Assembly (NCBI RefSeq): GCF_001597735.1
Contig: NZ_LUTS01000004.1
Span: forward strand, 124,001-188,000
Direction: 5' to 3'
DNA: 64,000 nt
Origin: Neptuniibacter pectenicola
Lineage (GTDB): Bacteria; Pseudomonadota; Gammaproteobacteria; Pseudomonadales; Balneatricaceae
The notes under the pieces were generated by a model. That model ran no database searches, had not been told where the DNA came from, and saw nothing but the letters and a program-made list of their open reading frames with translations. Within the stretch, counting starts at the first letter, position 1; every line of letters begins with the position of its first letter. The translations under genes were made by a program, and so were the position numbers. Positions 8,352-44,495 of this stretch are shown here, in pieces.

Positions 8352-8365
8352 AGGCGCTTTGTTGC

Positions 8366-9526: not shown

Positions 9527-9540
9527 GGAGTTAAGTGTTC

Positions 9541-13024: not shown

Positions 13025-13025
13025 G

Positions 13026-14099: not shown

Positions 14100-14153
14100 T
14101 TGTGCGTTTCTTTGGTTAGCATCGTTATATGAGTATTGAGCGATACAGTGAAT

Positions 14154-16186: not shown

Positions 16187-16187
16187 A

Positions 16188-16877: not shown

Positions 16878-17638
16878 TGTTGAATGGTAAGACAATCCTT
16901 GTTGTAGGCGCTGCCGGACTACTTGGGGGGGAAGTGGTTAAGGGGTTATTAAATAGTGGAGCGCACGTTATTGCTACAGACATCTCCATTGATGCTATGG
17001 ACGATCGTTTCAGTAAGTTAGATATTGACTATGATGACGAGGTACTCACATTACATCAGTTGAATATTCTGTGTGAGCAAAGTGTTAAGGAATTTTTTCA
17101 ATCATTAGACGTGCTTGATGGTGCCGTCAATGCGGTTTATCCACGTAATAGTAATTACGGAGCTTCATTTTTTGATGTTAATTTAGCTGACTTTAATGAC
17201 AATGTGAACTTGCAGTTAGGTGCAATGTTCCTTTTTTCACAGCAATGCGCTGCATTTTTCATGCGCACGAAAAAACCATTCTCGCTTGTGAATTTTTCTT
17301 CTATATATGGTGTAGTTGCTCCTGATTTTGATATCTATAATAACACTCAAATGACCATGCCAGTTGAATATGCAGCGGTAAAATCAGCTATGTTACATTT
17401 AAATAAATATATCGTTAGTTTTGTGCATGACTCAGATTTTAGAATAAATAGTGTAAGCCCTGGTGGGATCTACGATTGGCAGCCTGAAGGTTTTGTTGAA
17501 AATTACCGAGCTAAAACTTTGGGTGCAGGTATGTTAAACCCTTCAGATATGAATGGCTGTGTGGTGTTTCTTCTATCGGAAGCATCTAAATATATTAATG
17601 GACAGAATATCGTCGTGGATGATGGTTTCACCCTTTAG
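16874..17638 (+). CDS. ptmA: Short-chain dehydrogenase, PtmA-like
   Basis: A 254-residue classical SDR: VVGAAGLLGGEVV cofactor motif, VNFSSIYG (catalytic Ser region), the YAAVKSAM active-site Tyr-Lys and NSVSPGGI. Neighbourhood with PtmE-, PtmF- and NeuA-like genes supports a PtmA-type role in the early amino-sugar steps (inference). Start may be ATG 16874 or 16877. Confidence 0.82.
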   Translation: MMLNGKTILVVGAAGLLGGEVVKGLLNSGAHVIATDISIDAMDDRFSKLDIDYDDEVLTLHQLNILCEQSVKEFFQSLDVLDGAVNAVYPRNSNYGASFFDVNLADFNDNVNLQLGAMFLFSQQCAAFFMRTKKPFSLVNFSSIYGVVAPDFDIYNNTQMTMPVEYAAVKSAMLHLNKYIVSFVHDSDFRINSVSPGGIYDWQPEGFVENYRAKTLGAGMLNPSDMNGCVVFLLSEASKYINGQNIVVDDGFTL

Positions 17639-17658
17639 GTCAGTCCGGAGAGAAAGAA

Positions 17659-18804
17659 ATGACAGAGAAAGTTTTTTGGTGTAATTCATGTCTTAATATG
17701 TCTACGCGTCCCAGAATAGAATTTGACGAAAACGGCATTTGTAATGCATGTAATTGGGCCAAGCAAAAGAAAAGCATGGATTGGTCTAGCAGGCAAGAAG
17801 AACTTCAAGGTTTGTTGAACAAGTACCGCTCAAAAAACGGAGATGGTTTTGATTGTATTGTGCCAGTGAGCGGTGGTAAAGATGGTTCTTATGTTGCTTA
17901 TATGCTGAAACATAAATATGGGATGAACCCGTTGGCTGTTACGGTGCGTCCTGCTCTGAGCTTGGAAGTAGGTGACCAGAACTTAGTTAATTTCATTGAG
18001 TCGGGTTATAACCATATACACATATCTCCAGATACAAGAATCATGCAAAAGCTTAATAAGCATGGTTTTATAGAAAAAGGTTTTCCTTATTATGGCTGGT
18101 TAATTGCTATCACTACGGCAGTGATTCAAACCGCCCATAATTTTAAAATACCATTAATTTTTTATGGTGAGGATGGGGAAGTTGAATATGGGGGGTCTAC
18201 GGAGAGTAAGAGTAAAGCACTTTATAATATTGAGTATATGAAGCGGGTTTATTTTGAAGGTGGTTATGACAAAGTACTAGAAAAAGTGTTGGCAGAAGAT
18301 GATGTTGAAGATAAAGATTTAGCATTTTGGCGGTTTCCTTCAGATCAAGAGGTGGAAGATAGTGAGCTTGCCTTTACTCATTGGTCTTACTACGAAAGCT
18401 GGGATTCATATCGTAACTATCTTGTCGCAAAAGAACATTGTGGGTTAAAGGAAAAAGAAGAAGGTACTGCAGGTACATTCACGAATTTTTCCCAAAATGA
18501 TCAGGCTTTATACGCTCTACATGCATACTTGATGTATCTTAAGTTTGGTTTTGGTCGTGCGACCCAAGATGCGGGTATTGAAATTAGAAGGGGAGCTATG
18601 ACCCGTGAGCAGGCTCTGAATTTAGTAATGGCTTATGATAATCAATATCCGCATGAGTTTCTCGACTTGTATTTAGACTATTACCAGATGACAAAAGACG
18701 AGTTCGATGAGGTGCTTGATAGATACGCGAATAAATCACTATTCGAAAAAATAGATGGAATTTGGCAGCCAAAATTTTTAGTGGGTGAAGACTTCCAAAT
18801 ATGA
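17659..18804 (+). CDS. N-acetyl sugar amidotransferase (PseA/WbpG/PtmG type)
   Basis: Converts a sugar N-acetyl to an acetamidino group using ammonia and ATP. The PP-loop ATPase motif is PVSGGKDGS. An N-terminal four-cysteine cluster (CNSC near residue 8-11 and CNAC near 28-31) is typical of the family. 381 residues. It is followed immediately by HisH- and HisF-like genes, the same trio known from P. aeruginosa O-antigen (WbpG-HisH2-HisF2). AGGAGAG-like site GGAGAG lies upstream of the ATG. Confidence 0.92.
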   Translation: MTEKVFWCNSCLNMSTRPRIEFDENGICNACNWAKQKKSMDWSSRQEELQGLLNKYRSKNGDGFDCIVPVSGGKDGSYVAYMLKHKYGMNPLAVTVRPALSLEVGDQNLVNFIESGYNHIHISPDTRIMQKLNKHGFIEKGFPYYGWLIAITTAVIQTAHNFKIPLIFYGEDGEVEYGGSTESKSKALYNIEYMKRVYFEGGYDKVLEKVLAEDDVEDKDLAFWRFPSDQEVEDSELAFTHWSYYESWDSYRNYLVAKEHCGLKEKEEGTAGTFTNFSQNDQALYALHAYLMYLKFGFGRATQDAGIEIRRGAMTREQALNLVMAYDNQYPHEFLDLYLDYYQMTKDEFDEVLDRYANKSLFEKIDGIWQPKFLVGEDFQI

Positions 18805-19412
18805 AGCTAGCAATCGTTGACTATGGGATGGGTAATCTTCATTCATTGGTTGGTGCATTAGATTATGTATCGAATATTGACGTGCTTGTCTCTTCAAATA
18901 TAAAAGACCTTCGTCAAGCGGATAAATTGATTTTGCCGGGGGTAGGACATTTTTTGAGTGCAATGGCATGTATTAAAGATCTTGGCTTGGATGCTGTACT
19001 TAAAGAGTTGGTGATAGAAGAAAAAACACCCATATTAGGCATCTGTCTGGGTATGCAATTATTGACTGACTCTAGCGATGAGGGTGGCTATAGTGATGGC
19101 TTAGGTTTTATTAATGGTCGAGCCACTAGGTTTAACTCTAATGAACTACCTGTTCCCCATGTAGGGTATAACCAAGTAAACGCAGCCGTTAATTCGCGAT
19201 TATATGACGGTTTTGGGCCTTCGCCTGATTTTTATTTTACACATAGCCATCAGCTTCAAAGCGACTGCTCGATAGGTCAATCTACATGTCATTATGGGAA
19301 TGATTTTATAGCTAGTTTTGAGTATGAGAATATAGCCGGTGTGCAGTTTCATCCTGAACTAAGTCAAACAAATGGCTTGAAATTGTTAAAAAACTTTGTC
19401 GAGTTATTTTAA
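18801..19412 (+). CDS. hisH: HisH-like glutaminase for the amidotransferase
   Basis: Class I glutamine amidotransferase delivering ammonia to its partner. The catalytic triad is intact: C82 in GICLGMQ, and H184 and E186 in QFHPE. 203 residues. Since there are no other histidine genes nearby and it is ATGA-coupled to the sugar amidotransferase, it is a dedicated paralogue for acetamidino formation rather than histidine synthesis. Confidence 0.92.
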   Translation: MKLAIVDYGMGNLHSLVGALDYVSNIDVLVSSNIKDLRQADKLILPGVGHFLSAMACIKDLGLDAVLKELVIEEKTPILGICLGMQLLTDSSDEGGYSDGLGFINGRATRFNSNELPVPHVGYNQVNAAVNSRLYDGFGPSPDFYFTHSHQLQSDCSIGQSTCHYGNDFIASFEYENIAGVQFHPELSQTNGLKLLKNFVELF

Positions 19413-20185
19413 TGTTAAGAAATCGACTGATATTTAGCCTGATCTACTCGGATGGCTTTTTCATGCAAAGTAGAAATTTTAGGCTCCAGCGAGTGGGTGA
19501 TATAAATTGGCTAGAGAAAAACTATCGTTTTCATGAAATAGCATTCTCTTTAGATGAGTTAATTATATTAAATGCGTCTCGTACGGGGAAAGATATTACA
19601 GAGTTCAGCAAAATTGTTTCTAGGCTGGCCTGTAAGGTTTTTCTGCCGATTACCGCGGGAGGCGGGATTCGTCAAATTGGGGATGCTGAGCAATTGTTTA
19701 ATAGTGGTGCGGATAAGCTCTCACTAAATACAGTATTGTATTCAGACCCCGTATTAGTTGATTCAATTGCAAAAAAATATGGTCAACAGAGTATTGTTGC
19801 AATTGTTGACTATAAAATCGAAGGCGACACGCCTGTAGTATATATAGATAATGGTACTCAAAAGCTTAATATTACGTTGCTTGAGTATATTAAAAATATT
19901 GAAAATATGGGTGCTGGTGAAGTTGTTTTAAATAGCATAGATAAAGATGGCACTGGCTTTGGTTATGACTTAGACATAATTGAACGATACAAGTCACATA
20001 TAAATGTTCCTTTAGTGGTATCAGGTGGTGCTGGAAATGAGCATCATTTAGCTGTTGGTTTGAATGTAAACGGTGTTTCGGCGGTGTCCACGGCTAATTT
20101 ATTTAACTTTATAGGAAATGGGTTACCTAATGCTAGATCTTACTTGATTAAGAACGGCTTCAATCTAGCGGATTGGCGTAAGTGA
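19412..20185 (+). CDS. hisF: HisF-like ammonia-channel partner
   Basis: A 257-residue (beta-alpha)8 HisF homologue. Phosphate-binding turns GGGIRQIGDAEQLFNSGADKL and VVSGGAG are kept. At the place of the catalytic Asp11 of true HisF the residue is Ile11 (LIYSDG instead of LDVKDG), as expected for acetamidino-modification HisF proteins that only conduct ammonia. It overlaps the hisH stop by one base. This supports a role with the PP-loop enzyme at 17659. Confidence 0.9.
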   Translation: MLRNRLIFSLIYSDGFFMQSRNFRLQRVGDINWLEKNYRFHEIAFSLDELIILNASRTGKDITEFSKIVSRLACKVFLPITAGGGIRQIGDAEQLFNSGADKLSLNTVLYSDPVLVDSIAKKYGQQSIVAIVDYKIEGDTPVVYIDNGTQKLNITLLEYIKNIENMGAGEVVLNSIDKDGTGFGYDLDIIERYKSHINVPLVVSGGAGNEHHLAVGLNVNGVSAVSTANLFNFIGNGLPNARSYLIKNGFNLADWRK

Positions 20186-20218
20186 GTCTATGACGTTGCT
20201 ACATTTGATTGGATTAGT

Positions 20219-21316
20219 ATGAAAATTTTGATTACAGGTGGAGCTGGTTTTATTGGCTCGAACGTCATTCATTATATGATTGGCCAGACTGACAATAGTG
20301 TTATTAATGTTGATAGCCTTACTTATGCAGGGAACCTTGAATCCCTTTCAGGTATTTCCGGGTCTAGTCGTTATGATTTTGAGAATGTTGATGTATGCGA
20401 CAAACAGTCGCTTAGGGATGTTTTTGATACATATCAGCCTGATGCCGTAATGCACTTGGCAGCCGAAAGCCATGTTGACCGGTCAATAGATGGGCCTAGT
20501 GTTTTTATTCAAACTAACATTGTAGGTACGTATAACTTATTAGATGTCAGTCTGTCATATTGGCAGCAGTTGGATGCAAAAGAAAAATCGGCTTTCCGGT
20601 TTCACCATATATCTACAGATGAAGTTTATGGGGATTTAGATTTCGGTGATGCGTTGTTTTCTGAGAAAACACCTTATGATCCAAGTAGTCCATACTCTGC
20701 TTCGAAGGCAGCTAGCGACCATTTGGTAAGGGCATGGCATCGAACTTATGGATTGCCTGTGCTGGTAACCAATTGTTCAAACAATTACGGCCCCTACCAT
20801 TTTCCAGAAAAGTTAATTCCCTTAATTATTATGAACGCCCTAGAAGGAAAAGAGCTTCCTGTATATGGGAAAGGTGAACAAGTTAGGGATTGGTTATACG
20901 TAGAAGATCATGCAAGAGCATTATTTACTGTTTTGACACAAGGGCGTGCAGGAGAAACATACAATATTGGCGGCCATAATGAAAAACAGAATATTGAGGT
21001 TGTTCTTGCTATCTGTGCTTTACTAGAAGAATTGGTTACAGATAACTTACAAGAGCAATTGAAGAACAAGTATGGGCTTAATGTTCTATCAACAGGATAT
21101 GAATCACTGATTAGATTTGTTGCGGATAGGCCTGGGCATGATAAGCGATATGCTATAGATGCTAGTAAAATGAGTCGCGAGCTTGATTGGCATCCAGTGG
21201 AGTCTTTCGAGTCAGGGCTTAGAAAAACAGTGAAGTGGTATTTGCAAAATATGGATTGGTGTTTACGTGTACGAGACGGAAGTTATCAACGATTGGGTTT
21301 AAACCGTTCAGAGTAA
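20219..21316 (+). CDS. rfbB: dTDP-glucose 4,6-dehydratase RfbB
   Basis: Makes dTDP-4-keto-6-deoxyglucose from dTDP-glucose. Motifs: [42 protein letters not shown], and [18 protein letters not shown], all diagnostic for RmlB. 365 residues. It is separated from rfbA/rfbC by about 7.4 kb, an unusual split. Confidence 0.96.
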
Positions 21317-21396
21317 GGGCTACAAATCTACAGTGTTAAAGAGCTTCTATATAAGATAGTGAATTGATTAAGCTTCTCACAGCATATTTGGAATGA

Positions 21397-23178
21397 ATGA
21401 TGAAAATAATTGGTATTTATGATGGACATAACTCTTCTGTAGCTTTGTCAGTTGATGGGGAAATAGTTTGTGCGGTACAGGAAGAGCGTTTTACAAAAAG
21501 AAAGAATGAAACAGGATTTCCTAAGAATGCATTAAAGTATTTACTTGATAAGTATGAGTTGACTAATCAGGATATTGATTTGGTTGCGATGTCTACGATA
21601 GAACGAACAGATATAAATAATTTTCAGTACCCTATTGATGCTGTTTTTAGTGTGGAAAATTATATAGATCTGATGGAATATTATTGGAAGCCGAAACTAT
21701 CAGGTAAAGAGTATACAAAAGACTACGCTAAACAGTTTTTTGAAGAACATTTCCCAAATGAAGATACATTTTATAGTATTCCTGATTCTTTCTATGAATT
21801 AGATACAGATACACTGCAAAAGAAAATGATTGCAGTAACGACCAGTGATGTTGCTCGCTTTATTGGTGTAGATGAACAAAAAATAAAATTTTATGATCAC
21901 CATACATGCCATGCTATGTATGCTTATTTTGCTAATCCGAACAAAAAAAATAATACAGTAGCTATTACTGTGGATGCGTATGGGGATAAGCGAAATCAGA
22001 CTGTATGGCGTATTGTTGATAATAAGTTCGAATTAGTAGTCGATAGTGCTCAATGTGAAATTGCTCGTTTATATCGAATGGTTACTCTTTATTTACGCAT
22101 GAAGCCTTTGGAGCATGAGTTTAAAGTGATGGGGTTAGCTCCCTATGCAAAAACTCACTACTTTAAGGAAATTGAAGCTGTATTTGAGGAGTTAATGGTC
22201 TTTGATGGCTTGAAGATCGTACATAAGAACCGACCAGATAATATGTATGAATACTTGTCAGAAAAGTTAAAGTATTTCAGGTTTGATAATATCGCTGGAG
22301 CGATTCAGTCTTATACTGAGAAAATGCTAATTTCATTGTTTGAAAGGTCTTCGAAAGAGATTGGTTTTAACAACTTTGTCTTCAGCGGCGGAGTAGCAAT
22401 GAATGTTAAAGCAAACAAAGCATTAGGGGAGTTAGATTGTGTGGACGATTTGTTTGTTGCAGGCTCCTCATCCGATGAATCTCAAAGTATAGGTGCTTGT
22501 TATTATGCTAATTATGAAAATAACATCAAGAACCAACCATTACATGATTTATATCTAGGCACCGAAAACACAGATGCCGAAGTTTTAGCTTTTATTGAAA
22601 AATCTGGGCTTGATACGAAATATAGAGTCAAAGAAGTAGAAAATGCCGAATTAGCAAAATTACTAGCGGATGGCGAAGTTCTCGCTCGTGTTGTCGGAAA
22701 AATGGAATTTGGATCTAGAGCCTTAGGTAATAGAAGTATTTTAGCTAACCCTTCCAACCCTGGTATTATTCAGCATATAAATGAGCTTATTAAGGGGCGA
22801 GATTTTTGGATGCCTTTTGCAGCTACAGTCTTAGATTCATATCAGGAAAGGTATTTGGAAAATCCGAAAGGCTTCGAATCGAGATATATGGCTGTCGCAA
22901 TGGATACCAAGAAGGAATTCTTAGGCGAAATTAAAGCAGGTACGCATCCTTACGATGAAACTATTCGGCCACAGATTTTAACAAAGGATCAAAATCCAGG
23001 TTATTATGATTTAATTGAGAAGTTTTCAAAGTTAACAGGCATTGGTTCACTTCTGAATACCAGTTATAACTTGCACGGGCTTCCTGTGGTAAATGATATT
23101 GCAGATGCCGTGCATGTATTTGAGAATTCTGGATTAAAGTACTTAGTGCTTAATAACTATCTGTTATCTAAGATTTAG
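21397..23178 (+). CDS. Carbamoyltransferase, NodU/CmcH family
   Basis: O-carbamoylates a sugar using carbamoyl phosphate and ATP. The N-terminal ASKHA-like domain opens GIYDGHNSSVALSVDGEIV and has the EERFTKRKNE and DHHTCHAMYA (metal-binding histidines) motifs; the FSGGVAMNVKAN block follows; the C-terminal domain has EFGSRALGNRSI and LNTSYN. 593 residues, normal length. It sits between rfbB and wzx, suggesting a carbamoylated repeat unit. ATG 21397 or 21400. Confidence 0.92.
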   Translation: MMKIIGIYDGHNSSVALSVDGEIVCAVQEERFTKRKNETGFPKNALKYLLDKYELTNQDIDLVAMSTIERTDINNFQYPIDAVFSVENYIDLMEYYWKPKLSGKEYTKDYAKQFFEEHFPNEDTFYSIPDSFYELDTDTLQKKMIAVTTSDVARFIGVDEQKIKFYDHHTCHAMYAYFANPNKKNNTVAITVDAYGDKRNQTVWRIVDNKFELVVDSAQCEIARLYRMVTLYLRMKPLEHEFKVMGLAPYAKTHYFKEIEAVFEELMVFDGLKIVHKNRPDNMYEYLSEKLKYFRFDNIAGAIQSYTEKMLISLFERSSKEIGFNNFVFSGGVAMNVKANKALGELDCVDDLFVAGSSSDESQSIGACYYANYENNIKNQPLHDLYLGTENTDAEVLAFIEKSGLDTKYRVKEVENAELAKLLADGEVLARVVGKMEFGSRALGNRSILANPSNPGIIQHINELIKGRDFWMPFAATVLDSYQERYLENPKGFESRYMAVAMDTKKEFLGEIKAGTHPYDETIRPQILTKDQNPGYYDLIEKFSKLTGIGSLLNTSYNLHGLPVVNDIADAVHVFENSGLKYLVLNNYLLSKI

Positions 23179-23180
23179 TT

Positions 23181-24695
23181 TTGAGCGCCGATAGCCTTAA
23201 TAAACGTTATAGCGTAAAACTTGTATCAAGTATTATCTCCGGTATTGTGAATGCTATAATTGTTGCGCTGGTCCCCTCGGCTATGGGACCAGTGGCTTAT
23301 GGGCAATTAACTTATTTACAGCAGATCTTTAATCAAATTACTTCTTTTGCTGACGCAGGGACGTCAACAGCTTTTTTTACTAAATTATCAGCGAATAATA
23401 ATAGAAAAGAACTGATATCTCACTATTTTTTCTTTTCTATGCTGCTTCTAATGCTGTTGTCCTCTGCTCTTGGGGGAGTAGTTTTTTTTGGGTTTTCTGA
23501 TCTACTGTCCAAGGAGATATCAGCACTATCTTTTTATTTAGGACTGTTTTTGGGATTTGTTGTCTGGTTTACTCAGGTTGCAATTAAAATATCAGATGCG
23601 TATGCCCTAACTGTTACAGTTGAAGTCTTGAAGATAGTTTATAAGATTGTTTTTTTACTGTTTTTAATTCTTGTTATTTATAGTCTCACGCTAACTCTAG
23701 ATGTTTTCTTGTTTTTTCAAATCGTGGCGGGAGTGTTTTTTTTAGCCATATTGTTTTTTTATTTTTATAAAGAAAATATATTGTCAGGTTGTTTTGAACG
23801 AGGCTTTTCCGGGATTAAGGCGACGATTGATGAGTTTTTTGTTTATGTGTCGCCTTTGTTTGTATTTAATGCGGTTAGTATTGTTATCGCGTTCTTTGAA
23901 ATATGGCTTCTTCAGTATTTTGGTGGTGCAGAGTCAGTAGGGTTTTATGGGCTTGCATATTCGATTGCTGCCATGTGTTTTGTTTTTACAAGTGCGATGA
24001 CGCCTGTATTAACTCGTGAGTTTTCTCGTCTCTATGAGATAGGTAGAAATGATAAAATTCTGAAGCTATTTTATACATATTTGCCTTTGTTATATTTTAT
24101 TGCTGCTTATTTTGGATTGTTTATTGCCTATAATAGTGAATATGTATTGTCCGTTTTCGCCGACGAGCGATTTAGCAGCGCGGCTTTAACATTATCAATC
24201 ATGTCGCTTTACCCTTTGCATCAAACGTATGGCCAAATTACGAGTTCACTTTTTTTTGCTTCAGGGGAAACGAAAGCGTATAGAAATATAGGGCTGCTCT
24301 CAGCCTTGATAGGCCTAGTGCTAGTTTTATTATTTGTTTTCTTGTTTGATATGAAAGATGTCGGTTTTGCAATAAAAATGCTGGCGGCCCAGTTCATAGG
24401 AGTAAATATCCAACTGTATTACAATTGTCGAATGCTAAAAGGTAACTTTCCTAAACTTTTCTACGCTCAGTTAAAACCGCTGTTTAGTGTTTATTTAATA
24501 GTATTGATTTCTGACTGCTTGAACCCCTTCGGTAGTGAAACCTTTTTTGGTTTTTTTGTTTTTGGCATTATATATTCATTGTTGGTTGTTTTTGTTGTCG
24601 TTTATAGGGGCGATGCCTTCGGTCTCTGTCCAAATGCAGTATCGGCTCTTGTTCGAAAAATAAGGAATAAAGTTTTGGGTGGTAGATTCTTTTGA
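23181..24695 (+). CDS. wzx: Wzx-type polysaccharide flippase
   Basis: A 504-residue integral membrane protein with roughly 12-14 hydrophobic segments and the N-terminal KLVSSIISGIVNAIIVALVP-GPVAYGQL pattern of the MOP-superfamily Wzx/RfbX exporters. It would flip undecaprenyl-PP-linked repeat units. Start is TTG at 23181, two bases after the carbamoyltransferase stop. Base composition is very AT/T-rich, as usual for wzx. Confidence 0.88.
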   Translation: MSADSLNKRYSVKLVSSIISGIVNAIIVALVPSAMGPVAYGQLTYLQQIFNQITSFADAGTSTAFFTKLSANNNRKELISHYFFFSMLLLMLLSSALGGVVFFGFSDLLSKEISALSFYLGLFLGFVVWFTQVAIKISDAYALTVTVEVLKIVYKIVFLLFLILVIYSLTLTLDVFLFFQIVAGVFFLAILFFYFYKENILSGCFERGFSGIKATIDEFFVYVSPLFVFNAVSIVIAFFEIWLLQYFGGAESVGFYGLAYSIAAMCFVFTSAMTPVLTREFSRLYEIGRNDKILKLFYTYLPLLYFIAAYFGLFIAYNSEYVLSVFADERFSSAALTLSIMSLYPLHQTYGQITSSLFFASGETKAYRNIGLLSALIGLVLVLLFVFLFDMKDVGFAIKMLAAQFIGVNIQLYYNCRMLKGNFPKLFYAQLKPLFSVYLIVLISDCLNPFGSETFFGFFVFGIIYSLLVVFVVVYRGDAFGLCPNAVSALVRKIRNKVLGGRFF

Positions 24696-26527
24696 TGGAA
24701 AATAGTTTATCTTTTAAAAGTTCTTATAGATTTGTATATATAGTTGACACACTTGGTATCTGGTGTGCGTTAGATTTTAGTTATGATCCAAGTCTTGACT
24801 TGGTATTGACCTATGACTTTTCTTTAAAGTGTCATATTCGCTCGATGGGCGGTGATGTTTTCTATGTAGATCATCTTGTTGGTCAAGAAGAAATGCATGA
24901 AAATAATTTCATTGTCTATAATTTCTTCAAAGAATGGCATTTAGATAAAAATGGTAATGACCTTTTCTCTTATCGGGGTGTGCCTTTTGGTTTTTCGTTC
25001 AGGTTGGAATTTTGGAATGATTATGTATCTTTTATGCGATTGTATTTTTCTATTTCAAAATTAAAAAATATTTCGTATCAGTCTTTAATTGTTTCAACCT
25101 TAGATAATAATATACATGATGTTGTGAATGCTCTTGAGCTTCGTGCTGAAGTGGTAGAGAGTCATGATAAGCGAGAGGAGGGGTTTTATTTTCCTATCCA
25201 TAAATGGATGGATGAACAAATACGACCTAGTAAGATTAGAGGGCTGCTTTACAAAATTAGAGCTGTCGTGACTGCGTTATATGGTGGGATAGGTCTTTTT
25301 TTAGATGGTTTTTTTGTAGATAAAAATAAACATACTGTTTTTTTGCAAGAATACCATCCAACTAAAGATATTTTAAACACTCTCCGCGCTAATAAAAAGG
25401 TCAGATTAGTATTGTGTAACTTTTCGCGCGGTTCTAGTCTTAGCTTAAAACTAAAAGAAAGACTCTTACCTATATATAATGTTAAGTCTAATTCTGAAAA
25501 CTGCGCAGTAATATTCGAGCACTACAAAATAAACAAATATCATAAATTAGTTGTTGATGGTAAAGATGTTAGCTCTATTGCGTATAGGATTATAGAAAAT
25601 CGCGTACAGGCCTGTTTGCCAAAAACAGTGTCTACATTGGATTCATGCATAAACTATTTAGAAAAAACAACAGTAGATTTGGAAGTTCTTATTGCGAATA
25701 TTGGTTTTACTGCCACTTTATTTGATTGTGCATGTAAAGCTAAAGGAGTCCCTAGCTTTCTGATTATTAATGGTTTGTTAGGTGCTGAATATGTTGATGA
25801 TAGTAAATATGCTGATTTTATAAATTCATATTCTAAGAGCATTCGAGATAACTATTTTAGAGGAACTGAAGATGTTTACCCTTTAGGGGATCCTCGGATG
25901 GATATGTATTCAGTACAGGATGTGAAGAAAATCGTTCGAGATTTTCCTACTATTGTGATCGGGGCTTCAGGTTTTAATTCAGTTGATCTGAATTCATTTG
26001 TTGCTGTTGAGTTCGAATTTTTATCATCGGTGCTCTGTTCTTTTCAAAAACTTCGCTCTAATGGCTATCACTTCAAAATAATTGTAAAAGTTAGACCCAA
26101 CGGCTATCTGGCTCAGTATGAGCGATTTGTGGCTAAGTACTACCCAGATATTGTTGATGAAATTATCGATTCAGCGCCGATGAGGGATGTGCTTTTAAAG
26201 GCCGATTTTTATATTTCTATATATTCTCAGACCCTATTTGAAGCTTCTTGCTTAGGAATTCCTGTTGTTTATTATCGAGCAGATAATGAAATAAATTTTC
26301 CCCCATTTGATATGAAATCTGAATTAGTAACGGTATGTACGGAAGATGAGTTAGTTGCTGCTTACCAAGATTTTATAAATGGTTCTGCTCGATTTTCAGC
26401 ATTTCTTGATCGTAAAGTCATGGAAAAGTATGTTGGGCCTTTGGATGGCCAGAACTTAGAACGAAATATGGCATTTATTTATAGTCTTCTTGAGAGCAGG
26501 GGAAGTAATGATAAAAAAAATAATTAA
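24695..26527 (+). CDS. Putative GT-B-like glycosyltransferase, unrecognised family
   Basis: A 610-residue soluble protein I do not recognise. The C-terminal third (VYPLGDPRMDMY, then VKVRPNGY and ADFYISIYSQTLFEASCLGIPVVYY) resembles the nucleotide-binding half of GT-B transferases such as surface-carbohydrate and sialic/Kdo-type enzymes. The N-terminal half has no clear motif. It follows wzx with an overlap, so transfer of a sugar (perhaps the nonulosonate, for which no other transferase is obvious) is a guess. ATG at 24695 couples to the wzx stop. Confidence 0.6.
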   Translation: MENSLSFKSSYRFVYIVDTLGIWCALDFSYDPSLDLVLTYDFSLKCHIRSMGGDVFYVDHLVGQEEMHENNFIVYNFFKEWHLDKNGNDLFSYRGVPFGFSFRLEFWNDYVSFMRLYFSISKLKNISYQSLIVSTLDNNIHDVVNALELRAEVVESHDKREEGFYFPIHKWMDEQIRPSKIRGLLYKIRAVVTALYGGIGLFLDGFFVDKNKHTVFLQEYHPTKDILNTLRANKKVRLVLCNFSRGSSLSLKLKERLLPIYNVKSNSENCAVIFEHYKINKYHKLVVDGKDVSSIAYRIIENRVQACLPKTVSTLDSCINYLEKTTVDLEVLIANIGFTATLFDCACKAKGVPSFLIINGLLGAEYVDDSKYADFINSYSKSIRDNYFRGTEDVYPLGDPRMDMYSVQDVKKIVRDFPTIVIGASGFNSVDLNSFVAVEFEFLSSVLCSFQKLRSNGYHFKIIVKVRPNGYLAQYERFVAKYYPDIVDEIIDSAPMRDVLLKADFYISIYSQTLFEASCLGIPVVYYRADNEINFPPFDMKSELVTVCTEDELVAAYQDFINGSARFSAFLDRKVMEKYVGPLDGQNLERNMAFIYSLLESRGSNDKKNN

Positions 26528-36076: not shown

Positions 36077-37210
36077 TTGAACAAAAATATCTGTTTTGTG
36101 ACTGCAACGTCAGCAACGGTTGATGCTTTTTTAAAAGGGCATATTAACCAGTTAGCTAAGCATAACAATGTTACTGTGGTAACTTCTTTAGGTGAAACAC
36201 CGCTAGCCCTCCCAGAAAATGTTGAGCAAATTAATATTCATATATCTAGAAAAATTTCCATTTGGTCTGATATAAAATCACTGATATGCCTTTGGAAACT
36301 TTTTTTTAACTCAGATTTTGAGCTTGTAGTGTCTGTTACCCCGAAAGCTGGATTACTTAGTATGATGGCAGCCTTTTTATGTCGTGTTCCAGTACGGATC
36401 CATTGGTTTACTGGTCAGGTTTGGGTTACTCAGTCGGGTTGGATGAGGTCACTGCTTAAGTGGTGCGATAAGATTACAGCGCTGGCTGCGACAAATATAC
36501 TGACGGATAGCCAAAGTCAGATGGAGTTTATTATAAAGGAGGGGGTAACGTCCGAAGATAAGCTTCAAATTATTCATCAAGGCTCAATTTCGGGGGTGGA
36601 TCTTGATAAGTTTAGCCCTGATGCACAGCAACGCTGTGTTGCCCGTGAAGAAATAGGAGTGGGAAGCAATGATACTCTTTTTCTTTTTTTGGGTCGTTTG
36701 ACGCAAGATAAAGGGGTGTTAGATTTAGCTGTAGCCTTTCAGCAGTTAGCCAAAGTTGAAAATGATGTATTTCTTGCCTTTATTGGCCCTGATGAAGATG
36801 GATTGCAACAGGAAATCCTTTCAATCTGCAACGACTGTTCAGACAAAATCTACTTTAAAGGATTCACCGATAAGCCTCAATATTATTTTTCTGCTGCAGA
36901 TGTGTTTGTGTTACCTAGTTATAGAGAAGGTTTTGGTACCTCAGTAATAGAGGCAGCGGCAATGTCTGTTCCCTGTATAGGGAGTAATATTTATGGGCTG
37001 TCTGATGCGATAATTGATAAAGAGACAGGTGTTTTATTTCCTTGTCAGGATACAGCTGAGCTGCAGCATGCAATGAGCCGCTTAGCGCAAAATCCGGATT
37101 TACGAAAAACGATGGGGCGTGAGGCTCGGTTGAGAGTTCAAGCTGAGTTTAGCTCAGAGTTGGTTACAGAAAAATTTGTTAGTTATATACATAGTAAAAT
37201 GGGTCAATAG
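36077..37210 (+). CDS. Family 4 glycosyltransferase (PglA-like)
   Basis: A 377-residue GT-B retaining transferase. C-terminal GT4 signature: [20 protein letters not shown] and [40 protein letters not shown]-terminal [10 protein letters not shown] matches enzymes that add the second sugar next to a PglC-type transferase. TTG start at 36077 with AGGGAG upstream. It ends just before the initiating transferase gene. Confidence 0.9.
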
Positions 37211-37211
37211 C

Positions 37212-37823
37212 GTGAAGGTATACTGTTTTTTTCGTAGATTTTTAGATGTTGTTATAGCACTGTCTTTAATGGTTTTGCTGGCACCTGTGCTCATGGTTAC
37301 AGCGCTTTTTATTAGAGTGAAACTGGGTTCCCCCATATTGTTTTGCCAGCTTCGCCCCGGATTGAAGGGGAGCCCTTTTAAAATGTATAAGTTTCGCACT
37401 ATGTTGGATCAATGCGATGAAGCTGGGGTGGCGCTGTCAGATGATCAACGCCTTACACAATTTGGTAAAACGCTCCGTTCAACGAGTCTTGATGAACTGC
37501 CTGAGTTATATAATGTTTTGAAAGGGGATATGTCTCTTATTGGGCCTCGACCGTTATTAATGGAATATTTACCGCTTTATAATGAGAAGCAAAAACGGCG
37601 TCATGATGTAAGGCCCGGTATTACAGGTTGGGCTCAAGTTCATGGTCGTAACAACCTGAGTTGGGAGGAAAAGTTTAACTATGATGTTTGGTATGTGGAC
37701 AATTACTCCTTCAAAGTTGATATAAAAATTATTTTGTTATCAATCAAGGCCGTATTATCACGAGAAGGTGTAAGTGCCGAGGGACATGTTACAGTAAAAA
37801 AATTTATGGGTAATGAAAAGTGA
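37212..37823 (+). CDS. Initiating undecaprenyl-phosphate sugar-1-phosphate transferase (PglC-like)
   Basis: A 203-residue monotopic phosphoglycosyltransferase: one hydrophobic N-terminal hairpin (about 10-33), then [27 protein letters not shown], the [23 protein letters not shown] catalytic Asp-Glu block, and [14 protein letters not shown]. The short form lacks the WcaJ-type N-terminal membrane domain, like PglC. GTG 37212 is preferred over upstream starts inside the previous gene. Starts repeat-unit assembly. Confidence 0.94.
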
Positions 37824-38452
37824 AACTGGCGATATATGGGGCTGGAGGACATGGGCGAGTGGTCGCAGATGCTGCTGATTTAAGCGGTATTTGGTCTGAA
37901 ATAATTTTTTTTGATGATGCCTATCCGGACTTCAAATGTAGTGGTCGTTGGCCTGTTATAGGTAGGTTGGTTGATTTAATGTCTATAGTGTCAACCTATG
38001 ATGGTATTGTTGTTGCTGTGGGTGCGTGTGATGAGCGGCTCCGTTTATTGGAACTCATTCAAGCCGGTGGGGGGAATATTGTGTCTGTCGTCCACCCTAG
38101 TGCGGTTATTGCTTCGGACTGCTCGTTGGGTGATGGTGTCGTTGTTTGTGCTCTTTCGGTTATTAATACGGGCTCATCTATCGGTAATGGCGTTATTATC
38201 AATACGTCAGCAACTATTGATCATGATACGCACCTCGCTGATGGGGTTCATATCAGCCCAGGTGCTCATCTGGCTGGGGGGGTAACTGTGGGGTTGTCTT
38301 CTTGGATAGGCATTGGCGCAATAATTAAACAGCAAGTAATTATCGGTGATCAAGTTGTGGTTGGCGCTGGAGCTGTTGTTCTTAAAAATGTACAGTCGGG
38401 GCTTACGGTTGTAGGTGTCCCTTCGACTCCAATTTATAGTGGTTTAGAATAA
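37820..38452 (+). CDS. pglD: Sugar N-acetyltransferase, PglD/NeuD-like
   Basis: A 210-residue protein with the PglD arrangement: N-terminal Rossmann-like part ([20 protein letters not shown]), then left-handed beta-helix repeats with [32 protein letters not shown], in which the first His of DHDTH is the expected catalytic base. It acetylates the C4 amine made by the downstream aminotransferase, giving UDP-di-N-acetylbacillosamine. GTG start overlapping the previous stop. Confidence 0.92.
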
Positions 38453-39628
38453 ATGTTAAATACTCCGTTCTCCCCTTGGCCGTGTTATACCGTAGAAGAA
38501 GCTAACGCTGTTTCATCGGTACTTTTGTCTAATAAAGTGAACTATTGGACAGGTGAAGAAGGGCGAGCTTTTGAAAAAGAGTTTGCTCAATGGTGTAATT
38601 CTAATTATGCCGTTGCTGTTTCAAACGGTACGGTTGCACTTGATTTAGCCCTGATGGCACTGGATTTGCCTCCAGGTGGAGAAGTGATTGTAACTTCTCG
38701 AACATTTATTGCATCAGTGTCAGCTATTGTCAATGCTGGCCTCAGGCCTGTTTTTGCGGATGTAGATACAGATACACAAAATATCTCAGCTGACACTATT
38801 GCTAATGTTTTATCTTCCGATACTTGCGCAGTTCTTTGTGTCCATCTCGCAGGGCTGGCTTGTGATATGGATCCTATTTTAGAGTTAGCAAAAGAATGCA
38901 AACTGGCCGTTATTGAAGATTGTGCTCAAGCGCATGGTGCAGAATATAAAGGTCATTCAGTTGGTTCATTTGGTGATGTGGCGTGTTGGTCGTTTTGCCA
39001 AGACAAAATCATGACAACGGGCGGTGAAGGAGGGATGGTCACTACAAATAGTGAATCTGTTTGGCGTCGAGTCTGGTCCTTGAAAGATCATGGTAAAAAT
39101 TGGGATAAAGTTTACTTGCCTCAAAAAAAACAAGCCTTTCGTTGGGTACATGATTCTTTTGGAACAAATGGGCGTATGACAGAGATGCAGGCAGCTATAG
39201 GGCGACTACAGTTGTTGAAAATGCCGAACTGGCATCGAGCACGGACGAATAATGCTAATCGAATTATATCTGTATGCAGGAAGTTAAAAGGTCTCTATGT
39301 TCCTGAAATAAAACCTGATTTTAGGCATGCTTGGTATAAATGTTATGTATATGTCTGCCCCGAAGAGCTTTCGGAGGGGTGGAGTCGAGATAGAATTGTC
39401 AGTGCAATCGTTTCTGCCGGGGTGCCTTGTTATAGTGGTTCGTGCTCTGAGGTTTACTTGGAGGAGGCGTTTACTGATTATGATTTTACCCCTTCTCCTC
39501 GGTTATGTGGTGCTAAAAAGTTGGGCGAAACAAGTTTGATGTTCTTAGTGCACCCGACATTAAAGCCCGAAGAGATAGAGAAGACAGTTAACGTTATATC
39601 AAGTGTTATGTGTGAGGCGACGATTTAG
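38453..39628 (+). CDS. pglE: PLP aminotransferase, PglE-like
   Basis: A 391-residue DegT/DnrJ/EryC1 enzyme. The PLP lysine is K185 (FCQDK), with VIEDCAQAHGAEYKGHSVGSFG before it. The adjacent PglD-like and WbpM-like genes indicate it aminates UDP-4-keto-6-deoxy-GlcNAc. Its ATG directly abuts the pglD stop. It is clearly distinct from the LegC-like enzyme at 8366. Confidence 0.9.
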   Translation: MLNTPFSPWPCYTVEEANAVSSVLLSNKVNYWTGEEGRAFEKEFAQWCNSNYAVAVSNGTVALDLALMALDLPPGGEVIVTSRTFIASVSAIVNAGLRPVFADVDTDTQNISADTIANVLSSDTCAVLCVHLAGLACDMDPILELAKECKLAVIEDCAQAHGAEYKGHSVGSFGDVACWSFCQDKIMTTGGEGGMVTTNSESVWRRVWSLKDHGKNWDKVYLPQKKQAFRWVHDSFGTNGRMTEMQAAIGRLQLLKMPNWHRARTNNANRIISVCRKLKGLYVPEIKPDFRHAWYKCYVYVCPEELSEGWSRDRIVSAIVSAGVPCYSGSCSEVYLEEAFTDYDFTPSPRLCGAKKLGETSLMFLVHPTLKPEEIEKTVNVISSVMCEATI

Positions 39629-39629
39629 C

Positions 39630-41540
39630 ATGCTGCCCTCAATATTAAATTTGTCTCGTAATAAAAAAAGAACGCTGTTTGTTGTTTTTGATATCGTAGC
39701 CTTAATTATGTGCTGTTGGCTTAGTTTCGCACTGCGCTACGAAGATTGGGGGGCAAATAACTTTGCTCACTGGCCTTCTTATTTGTTGGCCCCAATTGTA
39801 TCGATTCCCATTTTTGTTCGTTTAGGCTTATATCGCGCAGTTATTCGCTATATAGGCTATAAAGCTTTATGGACTGCGGTAAAGGCGATTACTCTTGCGT
39901 TACTAGTATGGGCAGTTGCAACTTATATTTTGGGGCTAAGTGTTACGGTTCCACGTTCTGTTATTTTTATTTTTTGGTTTATTTCGATTGTCGTTGTTGG
40001 CGGCGCGAGAATGGTTGCACGGTGGGTTATCCTTCATCAGTTTCCTGGGGGTGAGCAGAAAGCAAAATTAGATTCTGAAAGAGTAATAATTTATGGTGCT
40101 GGCGCATCTGGGCGTCAATTAGCAGAAGCCTTGTATCACTCTAAAGAGTTTATAGCGGTCGCCTATGTAGATGATAATTCCAAGCTGCAAGGGCTGGATG
40201 TGAACGGTATTTGTGTGTATAGCCCAGATGAAATAGATTTATTAGTTGAAAAATATGGTGTAAAAACTGTGCTTTTAGCAATTCCATCGGCTTCTCGACA
40301 GCGGCGTAGAAATGTTGTGGATAAGTTGTCTGTCATTGCAGTTAAGGTATTAACTCTGCCGGGGTTGACTGATTTGGCCGGCGGAAAGGTTAGTGTATCT
40401 GATGTTCGAGAAGTGGACATAGCTGATTTGCTTGGGAGAGAAGAGGTTCGTCCTAATCAAGAGTTACTTGACGCTTGTATTCAAGGCAAAAGCGTTTTGG
40501 TGACCGGAGCTGGCGGCTCAATAGGGTCAGAACTTTGTCGTCAGGTCTTGAAGCAAGGTCCTTCGGTTTTAGTGCTGTATGAGATGTCTGAGTTTGCTCT
40601 TTATAGTATCGATAAAGAGCTTTCAAGTCTTGGGTTGGATGTTGAGATTATTTCGATTTTAGGGAATGTTTTAGATGGTCAGCACCTTACTATGGTTTTG
40701 CGTGAATATAATGTTAATACTATTTATCATGCCGCTGCGTATAAACATGTTCCGTTAGTTGAAAACAACAATGTAGCAGGTATTAGGAATAATCTTATAG
40801 GGACTTGGAGAACGGCTGAAGCGGCTCTAGAGTCTAAGGTGAATAATTTCGTACTTGTTTCTACGGATAAAGCTGTGCGGCCGACTAATGTAATGGGGGC
40901 AAGTAAACGGTTTTCAGAACTGGTGCTGCAAGCGATAAGTGATAGGGAACACGGTAGCTCTAATACACGTTTCACTATGGTTCGATTTGGCAATGTTTTG
41001 GGTTCTTCTGGCTCAGTTATTCCTTTATTTAAGGAGCAAATTAAACAAGGTGGCCCGGTCACTGTTACGCATCGAGATATCACTCGTTATTTTATGACAA
41101 TACCTGAGGCTGCTTCGTTAGTTATTCAAGCGGGTTCAATGGGGGCTACCGGTGATGTATATGTTTTGGATATGGGGGAGCCTGTTAAAATTGAGAACTT
41201 AGCAAAGCAGATGGTCAATTTGACAGGTTTGTCTGTGAAAGATGCTGATAACCCTAATGGTGATATCGAAATCCAATATACAGGCTTACGGGATGGTGAA
41301 AAATTATATGAGGAACTGTTGATCGGAGATAACGTTCTTAGTACTGACCATCCAATGATAATGCGAGCACAAGAAGAAATGATAGAATGGAATGAATTAT
41401 CTATAATATTGGTGCAGTTGCAGCAGGCGCTAGATCGATATGATCATCAAGAAATTAGGGATATCTTATTAGACAATGTATCTGGTTATCGTCCCCAGCA
41501 TGGCATTAAAGATATTCTTTATAGTCAGCGAACGCCTTAG
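39630..41540 (+). CDS. wbpM: Membrane UDP-GlcNAc 4,6-dehydratase (WbpM/PglF/CapD family)
   Basis: A 636-residue full-length WbpM-type enzyme: four N-terminal membrane helices (about 15-135), a first Rossmann domain (VIIYGAGASGRQLAEALYH), and a catalytic SDR domain (VLVTGAGGSIGSELCRQ, AAYKHVPLVE, STDKAVRPTNVMGASKR). It provides UDP-4-keto-6-deoxy-GlcNAc for the PglE/PglD-like genes. ATG 39630 is chosen, one base after the preceding stop, with GAGGCGA upstream. Commonly the last gene of O-antigen loci. Confidence 0.96.
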   Translation: MLPSILNLSRNKKRTLFVVFDIVALIMCCWLSFALRYEDWGANNFAHWPSYLLAPIVSIPIFVRLGLYRAVIRYIGYKALWTAVKAITLALLVWAVATYILGLSVTVPRSVIFIFWFISIVVVGGARMVARWVILHQFPGGEQKAKLDSERVIIYGAGASGRQLAEALYHSKEFIAVAYVDDNSKLQGLDVNGICVYSPDEIDLLVEKYGVKTVLLAIPSASRQRRRNVVDKLSVIAVKVLTLPGLTDLAGGKVSVSDVREVDIADLLGREEVRPNQELLDACIQGKSVLVTGAGGSIGSELCRQVLKQGPSVLVLYEMSEFALYSIDKELSSLGLDVEIISILGNVLDGQHLTMVLREYNVNTIYHAAAYKHVPLVENNNVAGIRNNLIGTWRTAEAALESKVNNFVLVSTDKAVRPTNVMGASKRFSELVLQAISDREHGSSNTRFTMVRFGNVLGSSGSVIPLFKEQIKQGGPVTVTHRDITRYFMTIPEAASLVIQAGSMGATGDVYVLDMGEPVKIENLAKQMVNLTGLSVKDADNPNGDIEIQYTGLRDGEKLYEELLIGDNVLSTDHPMIMRAQEEMIEWNELSIILVQLQQALDRYDHQEIRDILLDNVSGYRPQHGIKDILYSQRTP

Positions 41541-41675: not shown

Positions 41676-44495
41676 TTGGATTTAAAATTTGACTCTCTAA
41701 ATATACGAAAGTTCCCACTATATTTATGGCTTTTGTTTTTTATATATTCTGTTCTTCTGGCTTCGTTGTTCCAGAATTATATAGTGCCTACCTTTCTGAA
41801 CCCTGGCAATCAGTTATTAAGTGGTGATGCGGTCCTATTTGATCAAGTTGCGTGGTCTATGGCTGAAAGGATAAAGTTACATGGTTGGTCGGAAATTTCT
41901 CTGTTTAGTAACTCTTTGGAAACTGGAAATGTTGTCGTAGCGGCGATTGTCTATTCTATTTTTGGTAGAGATCCTTCTTTTATTATTCCTGTTAACGCAA
42001 TATTACATGCAACCTCTGGTCTTATGATGTTCGTGTTAGCTTTTGAATTAACAAATCAAAGAAAAATTGGCCTAGTTGCAGGGCTAATGGTTAGTATTTT
42101 ATTTGTTGTTTTTCCTTCAGCACTTAATTGGTATGGCCAACTACATAAAGATGGATATGCCATATTAGGAACGTTATTTATTATTTATGTATGGGTGAAA
42201 ATATTTTCTAGAGATTTTGATTTTAGTTTATCTCTTGTCATTATGAGTGTGTTAGGGATCTTTCTTATTGGTTTTGTTCGCCCCTATGCCTTATTGCTGA
42301 CATTTGTAGTTCTAGTTACATCGGTTACTTGTGTTTTATTAGTACAGCTGTGTTCTAAAAGAATCACGATTGATCGAAAAAGATCTGCGTTTGGCGTTGT
42401 TTTTATAGTCTTTCTGTTAGCTTCATATTTTACAATTAGTGATAGTGCTGTTCAGGTTAAAAAAACAATTGGTGATGCAGGTGTAAATCAGGTAGAAGAT
42501 TGGAGTTGGCAGGATACGGAGTGGGTTCCAAATAAAATTGAAAGGTATGTTCAGGGAGCCGCGACCGTAAGAGCTATTTTAGCTACGAGTAATGTTGAAC
42601 AGGGGGCGAAATCAGGTATTGATTTAGATGTATTGCCAAATGATATTTTGGGTGTCATTGCTTACCTGCCGCGCGCGACTCAGATTGGTATGTTCTCGCC
42701 ATTTCCATCTGATTGGTTAGATAGTTTGAGTTTAATGCGATTAGTTTCAATTGCTGAAATGTTGATCTATTACAGTTGTGCTGCTGGTTTATTTCTCTTA
42801 TTTGTATATAACCGCAGTCCTAGTATTTTATTTGTTGCTATTTTTTCTGTTTTCTTTCTTAGTATTTTAGGTTTTAGTGTTGTAAATGTAGGATCACTAT
42901 ATCGAGTGAGATGTGCCTATGTTTTTTTAATAATGATGTTAGGTTTAATTGGTTGGTTTATTTATTTGAGCCGCAGGCAGCACGTTATTAACTTAGCTAG
43001 GTACTTTAGTAGATTAAAAGAAAATGGCTCAGAACGGTTGCGGTTAGTTTTTCTTAGCTGTTCGATAATGTCAATCACATTGCTGTCGTTTATCCTTTTC
43101 TTTTTTCGTGACCTTTACATGGCAACAACATATGGTTTGGTCGGAGAGCTGGATGTCTTTTTTTTAGCCTTAATGATACCGATGACTGTAGTTTCGATTG
43201 GTTGTATCCCATTTGGGGCCTCTTTTATACCAGTGTTTATTGAACTGCTGCGTACAAAAGATGAAAGTGAAGTAAGAGAATATGTTAAGGGGCTAATCTC
43301 TGTTGTGCTCGTCGTGCTGGCTGTTGTATCCATGTTCGTATGGTATGCCTCAGTCCACCTGATTCCAGTTATCTCTTCTGCTCATACGTCAATGTTGGAT
43401 GACTTTCTTTTGTGGGGTATGGTTTTACTTGTTGTGAGTGGTCCAGTTGTAATTGGAAACTCTATACTTAATGCTAAAGGCAAGGTTGCTTTTGCAGGTG
43501 TTTCACAATTGGCAGTTCCTGTTATTGCTTTATTTATTTTGTATTTTTGGGGCGAAAATAATATAAAAGCAGGCATGATTGGTATGGTTGTGGGACAATT
43601 TGTGAATTTAGTATTAGTGCAGCTATATTTGTCAAAATTTGGTTTTACTTTATTTCCTCGTATGCATTGGAAAGCGCTTAATTTTAATAACATGTTTTTT
43701 TCAATGCAGTATTACTCCCTAGTTAGTTCTTCTTTTTTTCTTGCCTTATCAGTATTTGTTGGTAGCTTATTGGCAGTGTCCTTGTCTGAAGGTGCAGTTA
43801 CGTTATTGAACTTAGGTAATAAAGTTGTGCTTTTGATGACTGGGTTGGTTGGTAGTGCAATCACATCGGTATTGTTGCCTCATTTCTCAACTATTATAGC
43901 TAAAGGTGAAATGGAGAAGGCGCGTCAGGATCTTCTGTTTTTTATGATGTTGCTTATATTACTGGTTCTCCCCGTTTCTGGCATTCTCATGTCTTTTCCT
44001 GATTTTTTTGTAAACATGATATTTGGCGTTGCAGAATTAACGGCTGATGACTTATCGGACCTGTCTAGAATCATGGTGTTTTCGGCTATTCAGCTACCTT
44101 TTTTCACATCTTTAATCTTGATGATTAGGTTTTTGGTTGCAGTTAAAAGAGTTTCGATTGTTTTACTTGTTGCTTTTGTTGGTTTAGTAGCAAATATTTT
44201 ATTAAGTCAAATATTGATGCCTCATTTGGGTGTGTCAGGTATTGCCTTAGGTGGGGCTTTATCGGTTGTTGTTGCTACTATTTTATTAGCATGTTTTTTT
44301 GTGGTTCATGGTTACTTTTCGAAGTCATCTTTTCTTATGTTTGTGCTTATTTCTTCGGCGTGTATGTTAGTTTTTTCGAGTATTATTATCCATAAATTTC
44401 AAGGTTTATTGTTTGTCGTTTTTATTTCCTGTCCGTTGATTATTTATTTTATTAAGAATTCGGCTATGCGAGCTGATAGTAATAATGTTGAGTAA
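41676..44495 (+). CDS. Fused polymerase/GT-C-like and MurJ-like flippase membrane protein
   Basis: 939 residues, highly hydrophobic. About residues 1-440 form a multi-helix membrane domain with a soluble loop (about 260-340), resembling PMT/Wzy-like proteins of polysaccharide loci: LSGDAVLFDQVAWSMAE early and NWYGQLHKDGY in a loop. About 455-939 is a MurJ/MviN-like MOP flippase (GELDVFFLALMIP, GASFIPVFIELLRTKDE, LPHFSTIIAKGEMEKA). No stop or frameshift separates the halves. Start is TTG at 41676, weakly supported. No separate wzy is seen, so the N-half could be the polymerase. Confidence 0.75.
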   Translation: MDLKFDSLNIRKFPLYLWLLFFIYSVLLASLFQNYIVPTFLNPGNQLLSGDAVLFDQVAWSMAERIKLHGWSEISLFSNSLETGNVVVAAIVYSIFGRDPSFIIPVNAILHATSGLMMFVLAFELTNQRKIGLVAGLMVSILFVVFPSALNWYGQLHKDGYAILGTLFIIYVWVKIFSRDFDFSLSLVIMSVLGIFLIGFVRPYALLLTFVVLVTSVTCVLLVQLCSKRITIDRKRSAFGVVFIVFLLASYFTISDSAVQVKKTIGDAGVNQVEDWSWQDTEWVPNKIERYVQGAATVRAILATSNVEQGAKSGIDLDVLPNDILGVIAYLPRATQIGMFSPFPSDWLDSLSLMRLVSIAEMLIYYSCAAGLFLLFVYNRSPSILFVAIFSVFFLSILGFSVVNVGSLYRVRCAYVFLIMMLGLIGWFIYLSRRQHVINLARYFSRLKENGSERLRLVFLSCSIMSITLLSFILFFFRDLYMATTYGLVGELDVFFLALMIPMTVVSIGCIPFGASFIPVFIELLRTKDESEVREYVKGLISVVLVVLAVVSMFVWYASVHLIPVISSAHTSMLDDFLLWGMVLLVVSGPVVIGNSILNAKGKVAFAGVSQLAVPVIALFILYFWGENNIKAGMIGMVVGQFVNLVLVQLYLSKFGFTLFPRMHWKALNFNNMFFSMQYYSLVSSSFFLALSVFVGSLLAVSLSEGAVTLLNLGNKVVLLMTGLVGSAITSVLLPHFSTIIAKGEMEKARQDLLFFMMLLILLVLPVSGILMSFPDFFVNMIFGVAELTADDLSDLSRIMVFSAIQLPFFTSLILMIRFLVAVKRVSIVLLVAFVGLVANILLSQILMPHLGVSGIALGGALSVVVATILLACFFVVHGYFSKSSFLMFVLISSACMLVFSSIIIHKFQGLLFVVFISCPLIIYFIKNSAMRADSNNVE

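Follow-up and report, generated by a model that had tools for sequence, protein, structure and literature searches.

Can one protein both flip a lipid-linked glycan across the membrane and act on it on the far side? The question is raised by the last gene of a long surface-glycan cluster (∼7.1 to 44.5 kb) in a stretch of Neptuniibacter pectenicola DNA (the window, 64,000 nucleotides in full; Table 1). The original prediction, made from the letters alone, described one uninterrupted 939-residue frame whose first ∼440 residues resemble a PMT/Wzy-like membrane protein and whose last ∼480 resemble MurJ/MviN. The single frame is borne out: its TTG start lies closely downstream of an in-frame stop, and by hydropathy the protein has 24 membrane segments, of which the N half accounts for 10 and the C half for 14. 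The full-length structural model is of moderate confidence (pTM, 0.65); in it the linker between the halves appears flexible, and the mutual placement of the domains is not fixed by the model.

TABLE 1 Coordinates, within the window, of the fusion gene, its domains and conserved residues, and other genes of the cluster
Feature	Position	Strand	Remarks or basis
Wzx-type flippase, separate, of the same cluster	23181..24695	+	PF01943
GT4 glycosyltransferase, conserved neighbor	36077..37210	+	Pfam, synteny
PglC-like phosphoglycosyltransferase, initiating enzyme	37176..37823	+	NCBIfam, synteny
NeuD/PglD-like acetyltransferase	37820..38452	+	TIGR03570 above cut-off
DegT/PglE-like aminotransferase	38453..39628	+	Pfam, NCBIfam
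PglF-like UDP-sugar 4,6-dehydratase	39603..41540	+	PF02719, E = 3e-119
Fusion gene	41676..44495	+	939 aa, TTG start, single open frame
N domain, residues 1-446; GT-C_A-fold putative periplasmic glycosyltransferase, ∼10 TM	41676..43013	+	AF2 and VIA
D51, first acidic residue of extracytoplasmic loop 1	41826..41828	+	D in 44/44 homologues covering the position; on PMT_2 DE motif
D159 of HKD motif, end of loop 2	42150..42152	+	45/45; aligned with second conserved Asp of PMT_2
R202, loop 3	42279..42281	+	45/45; GT-C loop-3 R/K pattern
D316, large extracytoplasmic loop before last helices	42621..42623	+	45/45
Interdomain linker, residues 434-451, positively charged	42975..43028	+	Low pLDDT at 443-451 (full model), charge count
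C domain, residues 452-939; MurJ-type MOP flippase, 14 TM	43029..44492	+	PF03023, VIA
R478, equivalent of MurJ R24	43107..43109	+	25/25 fused proteins
K716, at the MurJ R270 position	43821..43823	+	K in 25/25 fused, R in 14/14 canonical rows

The N half matches no Pfam model above cut-off (DUF6541 appears below threshold only) and no PDB sequence, even with a 45-row profile. Its AlphaFold model, built with 45 homologues, has high confidence (pLDDT, 91.3; pTM, 0.91). The first 48 VIA rows for this model are all GT-C enzymes or subunits, with Z scores from 20.4 to 11.0, and the next row falls to 7.7; AglB (20.4), ArnT (20.0), STT3 (20.0), PglB (17.6), DPY19 (17.3), Pmt4 (16.9), and arabinosyltransferases (11 to 14) are among the matches. 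Foldseek also places GT-C entries among its top rows, with weak E values (best, 0.06). WaaL (7tpg) aligns with the N model at a Foldseek TM score of 0.22, and the VIA list contains no WaaL/Wzy fold. The GT-C/PMT-like part of the prediction is thus strongly supported by the modeled fold, whereas membership in a Wzy family gained no support, the Wzy_C profile (PF04932) having no match in the 45 N homologues. The possibility that the N half is an extra MOP bundle, or an unrelated helix bundle, was excluded by its structural neighbors, which are all GT-C.

Residues 45 to 198 align with PMT_2-type proteins (E = 3.1e-5, the value of that single profile comparison, which spans part of the domain). 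STT3-type proteins align more weakly (0.017), again with D51 on the loop-1 Asp; the better match to PMT_2 leans toward lipid-phosphate donors. In the published GT-C pattern, loop 1 carries an acidic motif, loop 2 has R and/or D/E/N/Q, loop 3 has R/K, and the last cluster again has R/K (PMC6801728). D51 in loop 1, K158-D159 in loop 2, and R202 in loop 3 are all present, conserved as listed in Table 1. For the final R/K, which a Pro should follow, R410 and R412 are invariant, and the trailing Pro occurs in some homologues and not in the window protein. Among the 45 homologues, D159, R202, R299, D316, R410, and R412 never vary. The N domain has acidic residues in loops corresponding to those of Campylobacter lari PglB, which uses D56 (loop 1), R147/D154/D156 (loop 2), E319 (EL5), and R375 (EL6).

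The MurJ/MviN-like character of the C half stands on both sequence and fold: PF03023 matches residues 484 to 908 (E = 1.2e-28), and MurJ aligns over 467 residues with a VIA Z score of 35.1, the best of all MOP structures listed. The fusion protein scores 107.9 bits against the NCBIfam MurJ equivalog TIGR01695, for which the cut-off is 235.55. MurJ requires R18, R24, and R270 (E. coli numbering; PMC9973255). In the fused proteins the equivalent of R24 is invariant, that of R18 is lost, and the R270 position is occupied by Lys. For the remaining positions, named after E. coli MurJ, the equivalents of D25 and D39 are invariant and those of R52, R53, E57, and E273 are lost. Two outliers in this comparison, a “canonical” row (1 of the 14) that is apparently the wrong ORF and the poorly aligned row L129, were given no weight. 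Since the equivalents of R18, R52, and E273 are gone, this diverged 14-helix MurJ fold is unlikely to serve as a lipid II flippase and is most naturally read as handling some other substrate. The canonical MurJ of the same genome is encoded on another contig.

The fusion recurs well beyond this organism. Another family of the same order has a fused orthologue of 1,002 aa, and the alignment of the two proteins takes in both halves, with 38% identity over 880 aa; the N half is present in 1 of the other 389 genomes searched in the order, and relatives match the full-length protein through the MurJ half only. A profile search of the phylum found fusions of 966 to 974 aa in contigs named Zetaproteobacteria. 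A scan of contigs from named genomes with the N-domain alignment as the query yielded 50 loci; a single query sequence gave no match in the same contigs. Both domains share one frame at 26 of the 50 loci, in beta-, gamma-, zeta-, and deltaproteobacteria. With two pairs that are apparently near duplicates, the distinct fused loci number ∼24, and homologues aligned in full are 28 to 37% identical to the window protein from end to end. One locus has a triple fusion, in which a 1,261-aa frame joins an NAD-dependent epimerase to the N and MurJ domains (L112:8972-12757). Two MAG contigs named Pseudorhodoplanes and Bacteroidia carry apparently the same 956-aa fusion and are probably misbinned. Plasmid records gave standalone MurJ-like matches only.

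In a tree of N domains (52 rows), all 25 fused rows belong to a 29-row clade with 100/100 support. Its other four members are the N genes of two split loci, L109 and L131, a standalone duplicate beside a fused copy in L119, and one contig-truncated row; the 23 rows outside the clade are standalone or truncated N domains. At the split loci the halves are adjacent, unfused genes, in reversed order in one of them. L131 (Elusimicrobia) has the N gene and then the MurJ gene; L109 (Formivibrio citricus) has a cytoplasmic GT2 fused to the MurJ-type flippase (L109:7517-9955), and the N domain is the next gene. Every checkable member of the fused clade is fused to, or lies beside, a MurJ-type gene. Outside the clade, a frame in an Anaerolineae MAG joins the N domain to an ABC-2 export permease domain (L116:247-2439; PF01061, E = 3.9e-17), with an ABC ATPase gene next to it; this is an independent fusion of the N domain to a glycan exporter of unrelated fold. 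At six loci outside the clade (L117, L120 to L123, and L134), which are closely alike NeuB-containing clusters of Comamonadaceae and relatives, the N gene is followed by an MsbA-like ABC exporter. Standalone N genes also occur in tandem pairs (L118, L125, and L127), possibly representing two transfer specificities.

The original prediction held that flipping could be coupled to polymerization or glycosylation of the lipid-linked units; a link between flipping and sugar transfer in the periplasm gains support from the clade locked to MurJ-type genes and from the independent ABC-2 exporter fusion. The best-surviving alternative is that the fusion merely coexpresses and colocalizes two independently acting proteins, with no handover between the domains. 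The separate genes of L109 and L131 and the flexible linker of the model would fit, but very diverged lineages have retained the fusion, the halves remain neighbors where they are not fused, and the N domain was separately fused to an unrelated exporter. We consider this alternative unlikely.

From a hand assignment of ten helices, based on the model and hydropathy, 38 of the 48 columns that are ≥90% conserved lie on the periplasmic side of the N domain, ten lie in helix cores, and none lie on the cytoplasmic side. The density of K/R is 11 in 50 residues inside versus 12 in 164 outside. This periplasmic placement of the conserved residues, D51, D159, R202, and D316 among them, resting on a model, is a matter of consistency, not proof. 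An even number of helices in the N half would leave the linker on the cytoplasmic side, which is also where MurJ starts. The active face of the N domain would then look toward the compartment that receives the flipped glycan, in keeping with an in-to-out handover.

The neighboring genes suggest what is delivered. GT4, PglC, NeuD, DegT, and PglF genes lie downstream of the fusion gene in most loci and upstream of it in the window (36077-41540). Where coding sequence exceeds 12 kb, PglC accompanies 20 of 22 fused-clade loci versus 3 of 17 loci with a standalone N gene. These neighbors match PglF, PglE, PglD, and PglC of the diNAc-bacillosamine route, and so we infer that what is flipped is probably a glycan linked to undecaprenyl diphosphate and begun with such a sugar. 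The fusion, PglC/D/E/F, and GT4 form a compact glycan-assembly module. The G+C content of the cluster is 34 to 43%, versus 45 to 50% in most flanking stretches; this low G+C content and the rarity of the N half in the order would fit horizontal acquisition. The same low-G+C cluster contains nonulosonic-acid genes (NeuB, UDP-GlcNAc 2-epimerase, and CBS-nucleotidyltransferase) and a carbamoyltransferase (7152-22000). It also has its own Wzx, which went unmentioned in the original prediction and complicates a reading of the fusion as the only flippase: the MurJ-type domain is not the sole flippase there, and several other fused loci have a separate Wzx as well. Adjoining Wzx, a 611-aa protein that is not polytopic and matches no Pfam family is encoded at 24692-26527.

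No separate wzy was apparent in the original prediction, and the sole other polytopic ORF between 7 and 44.5 kb is indeed the Wzx-type flippase. The fusion is the only polytopic protein in 6 of the 15 fused-clade loci that have >7 kb on both sides. The control set consisted of 20 PglC-type loci from other Gammaproteobacteria, chosen for their close DegT relatives, and none of them has the N domain. A separate polytopic ORF of 340 to 460 aa, not MOP-like, occurs in 13 of these versus 2 of the 15 fused loci (Fisher P = 0.005). The size limits were set post hoc, and the contrast is weaker for any non-MOP polytopic ORF of at least 250 aa (at least 13/20 versus 5/15). Ten of the control ORFs were scanned: four matched Wzy_C (one just under cut-off), one matched EpsG, and five belonged to no informative family. 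Wzx or MurJ-like partners are frequent in the standalone N loci (n = 17), and Wzy_C is labeled in none of them. In the N. pectenicola genome, STT3 and PMT_2 had no match at the thresholds used. Three Wzy_C proteins are encoded outside the window; one is probably WaaL, since it lies beside MsbA- and HldE-like (LPS-core) genes, another is in a different exopolysaccharide cluster on the same contig, and the third is isolated. A single Wzz-domain protein of ∼740 aa is encoded on another contig. In the window cluster, the N domain most likely stands in for the absent polymerase. Four fused loci (L089, L099, L108, and L119) also encode a Wzy_C-type protein close to the module, and there the N domain need not be the polymerase.

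These four loci are also what would be expected if the N domain were a GT-C enzyme that, like Gtr or ArnT, decorates the flipped glycan with a single sugar carried by an undecaprenyl-phosphate donor, with the polymerase encoded elsewhere. The profile match to PMT_2/ArnT-like proteins and the loop-3 Arg, typical of lipid-phosphate users, point the same way. However, a dedicated search found no GtrB-like lipid-phosphate-sugar synthase within ∼10 kb of any fused gene, and 6 of the 15 well-flanked fused loci have no other polytopic protein; we judge a decorating role rather improbable. Apparent GtrB-like synthases near standalone N genes were rejected, the signal being traced to the epimerase half of one reference protein; no other close relatives with the two C-terminal helices were found in the dedicated search.

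Slightly less credible still is an oligosaccharyltransferase-like N domain that transfers the glycan to protein or another acceptor, which would make the fusion, PglC/D/E/F, and GT4 a pgl pathway with a one-chain flippase-transferase. AglB, STT3, and PglB are among its top structural matches, the neighbors correspond to PglF/E/D/C, and the conserved Asp residues of loops 1 and 2 and the large loop mirror D56, D154, and E319 of PglB in position. Against this, PF02516 (STT3) matches neither the fusion protein nor its homologues in Pfam scans, and the soluble C-terminal domain bearing the WWD motif that reads the sequon is absent: the membrane part ends at ∼residue 433, MurJ follows, and the sequence contains no WWD. 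Upstream gene content is also variable, as in O-antigen or capsule clusters. The last alternative, that a sequencing error joined two genes, can be set aside with near certainty, given the fused orthologue in the same order and the 26 fused homologues among the 50 loci.

The mechanism we favor, and think probable, is a single-chain flip-then-transfer machine for an undecaprenyl-linked surface glycan. PglC would initiate the glycan on undecaprenyl diphosphate, using as first sugar an aminated and acetylated one made by PglF, PglE (DegT), and PglD (NeuD). GT4 and other cytoplasmic transferases would lengthen it, and the C-terminal MurJ-type domain would carry it across the membrane. The N-terminal GT-C_A domain, through its periplasm-facing residues, would transfer the newly flipped glycan or add a sugar to it. 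Flip-then-transfer is the best-supported mechanism, and polymerization is the leading reaction, unproven but a realistic candidate for the transfer step. Transfer to another acceptor (ligase or OST-like) and attachment of a sugar supplied by a lipid-phosphate donor are less likely, to the same degree, and some other reaction would be surprising. We propose only tentatively that one polypeptide replaces Wzx/Wzy, with a MurJ-type flippase handing undecaprenyl-diphosphate-linked units directly to a polymerase of the GT-C_A fold, so that flipping and polymerization would be physically channeled. To our knowledge, this fold has not been assigned to polymerases of the Wzx/Wzy pathway.

This conserved joining of a GT-C_A glycosyltransferase to a MurJ-type flippase is apparently undescribed so far: the literature searched, with subscription journals mostly outside its coverage, held no relevant report of flippase-polymerase or MurJ-domain fusions. 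Handover of lipid-linked glycans from a flippase to a periplasmic polymerase or transferase has largely been deduced from genetic work on proteins encoded separately. In a natural fusion both stoichiometry and partner are set, and there is a single target for reconstitution or cryo-EM, making handover directly testable. The N domain defines a widespread GT-C family without a Pfam or NCBIfam model. Our findings also suggest that MurJ-matching proteins of 950 to 1,000 aa are not lipid II flippases, and such matches are a likely source of misannotation.

How does the fusion compare with known systems? With the GT-C_A enzymes ArnT/PMT and PglB/STT3/AglB, the N domain shares the fold (Z, 17 to 20), a large first loop with a leading Asp, an acidic residue ending loop 2, the loop-3 Arg, and an Arg pair in the last extracytoplasmic loop. 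Unlike them, it has ∼10 rather than 11 to 13 TM helices, lacks a soluble C-terminal domain, is fused to a flippase, and fits no Pfam or NCBIfam model. The C half shares the 14-helix MOP fold and the R24/D25/D39 equivalents with the lipid II flippase MurJ but has lost those of R18/R52/R53/E57/E273, has K in place of R270, and scores below the equivalog cut-off. The cluster type, initiating PglC, glycosyltransferases, and pairing of a flippase with a periplasm-facing polytopic enzyme recall Wzx/Wzy assembly of O antigen or capsule; here, however, the flippase of the fusion is MurJ-type and joined to the enzyme, which has a GT-C_A fold and no Wzy_C match. The Campylobacter pgl system (PglF-E-D-C, PglK, and PglB) uses the same kinds of sugar-making and initiating enzymes and likewise a flippase followed by a GT-C transferase, and some standalone N relatives adjoin an MsbA/PglK-like ABC exporter. 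The fusion differs in having a MurJ-type instead of an ABC flippase and in lacking the OST signature domain. MprF, a lipid synthase fused to a flippase, also makes and flips a lipid-linked product with one chain, but its folds and substrates are unrelated and the order of events is reversed: in MprF, synthesis comes first and flipping follows.
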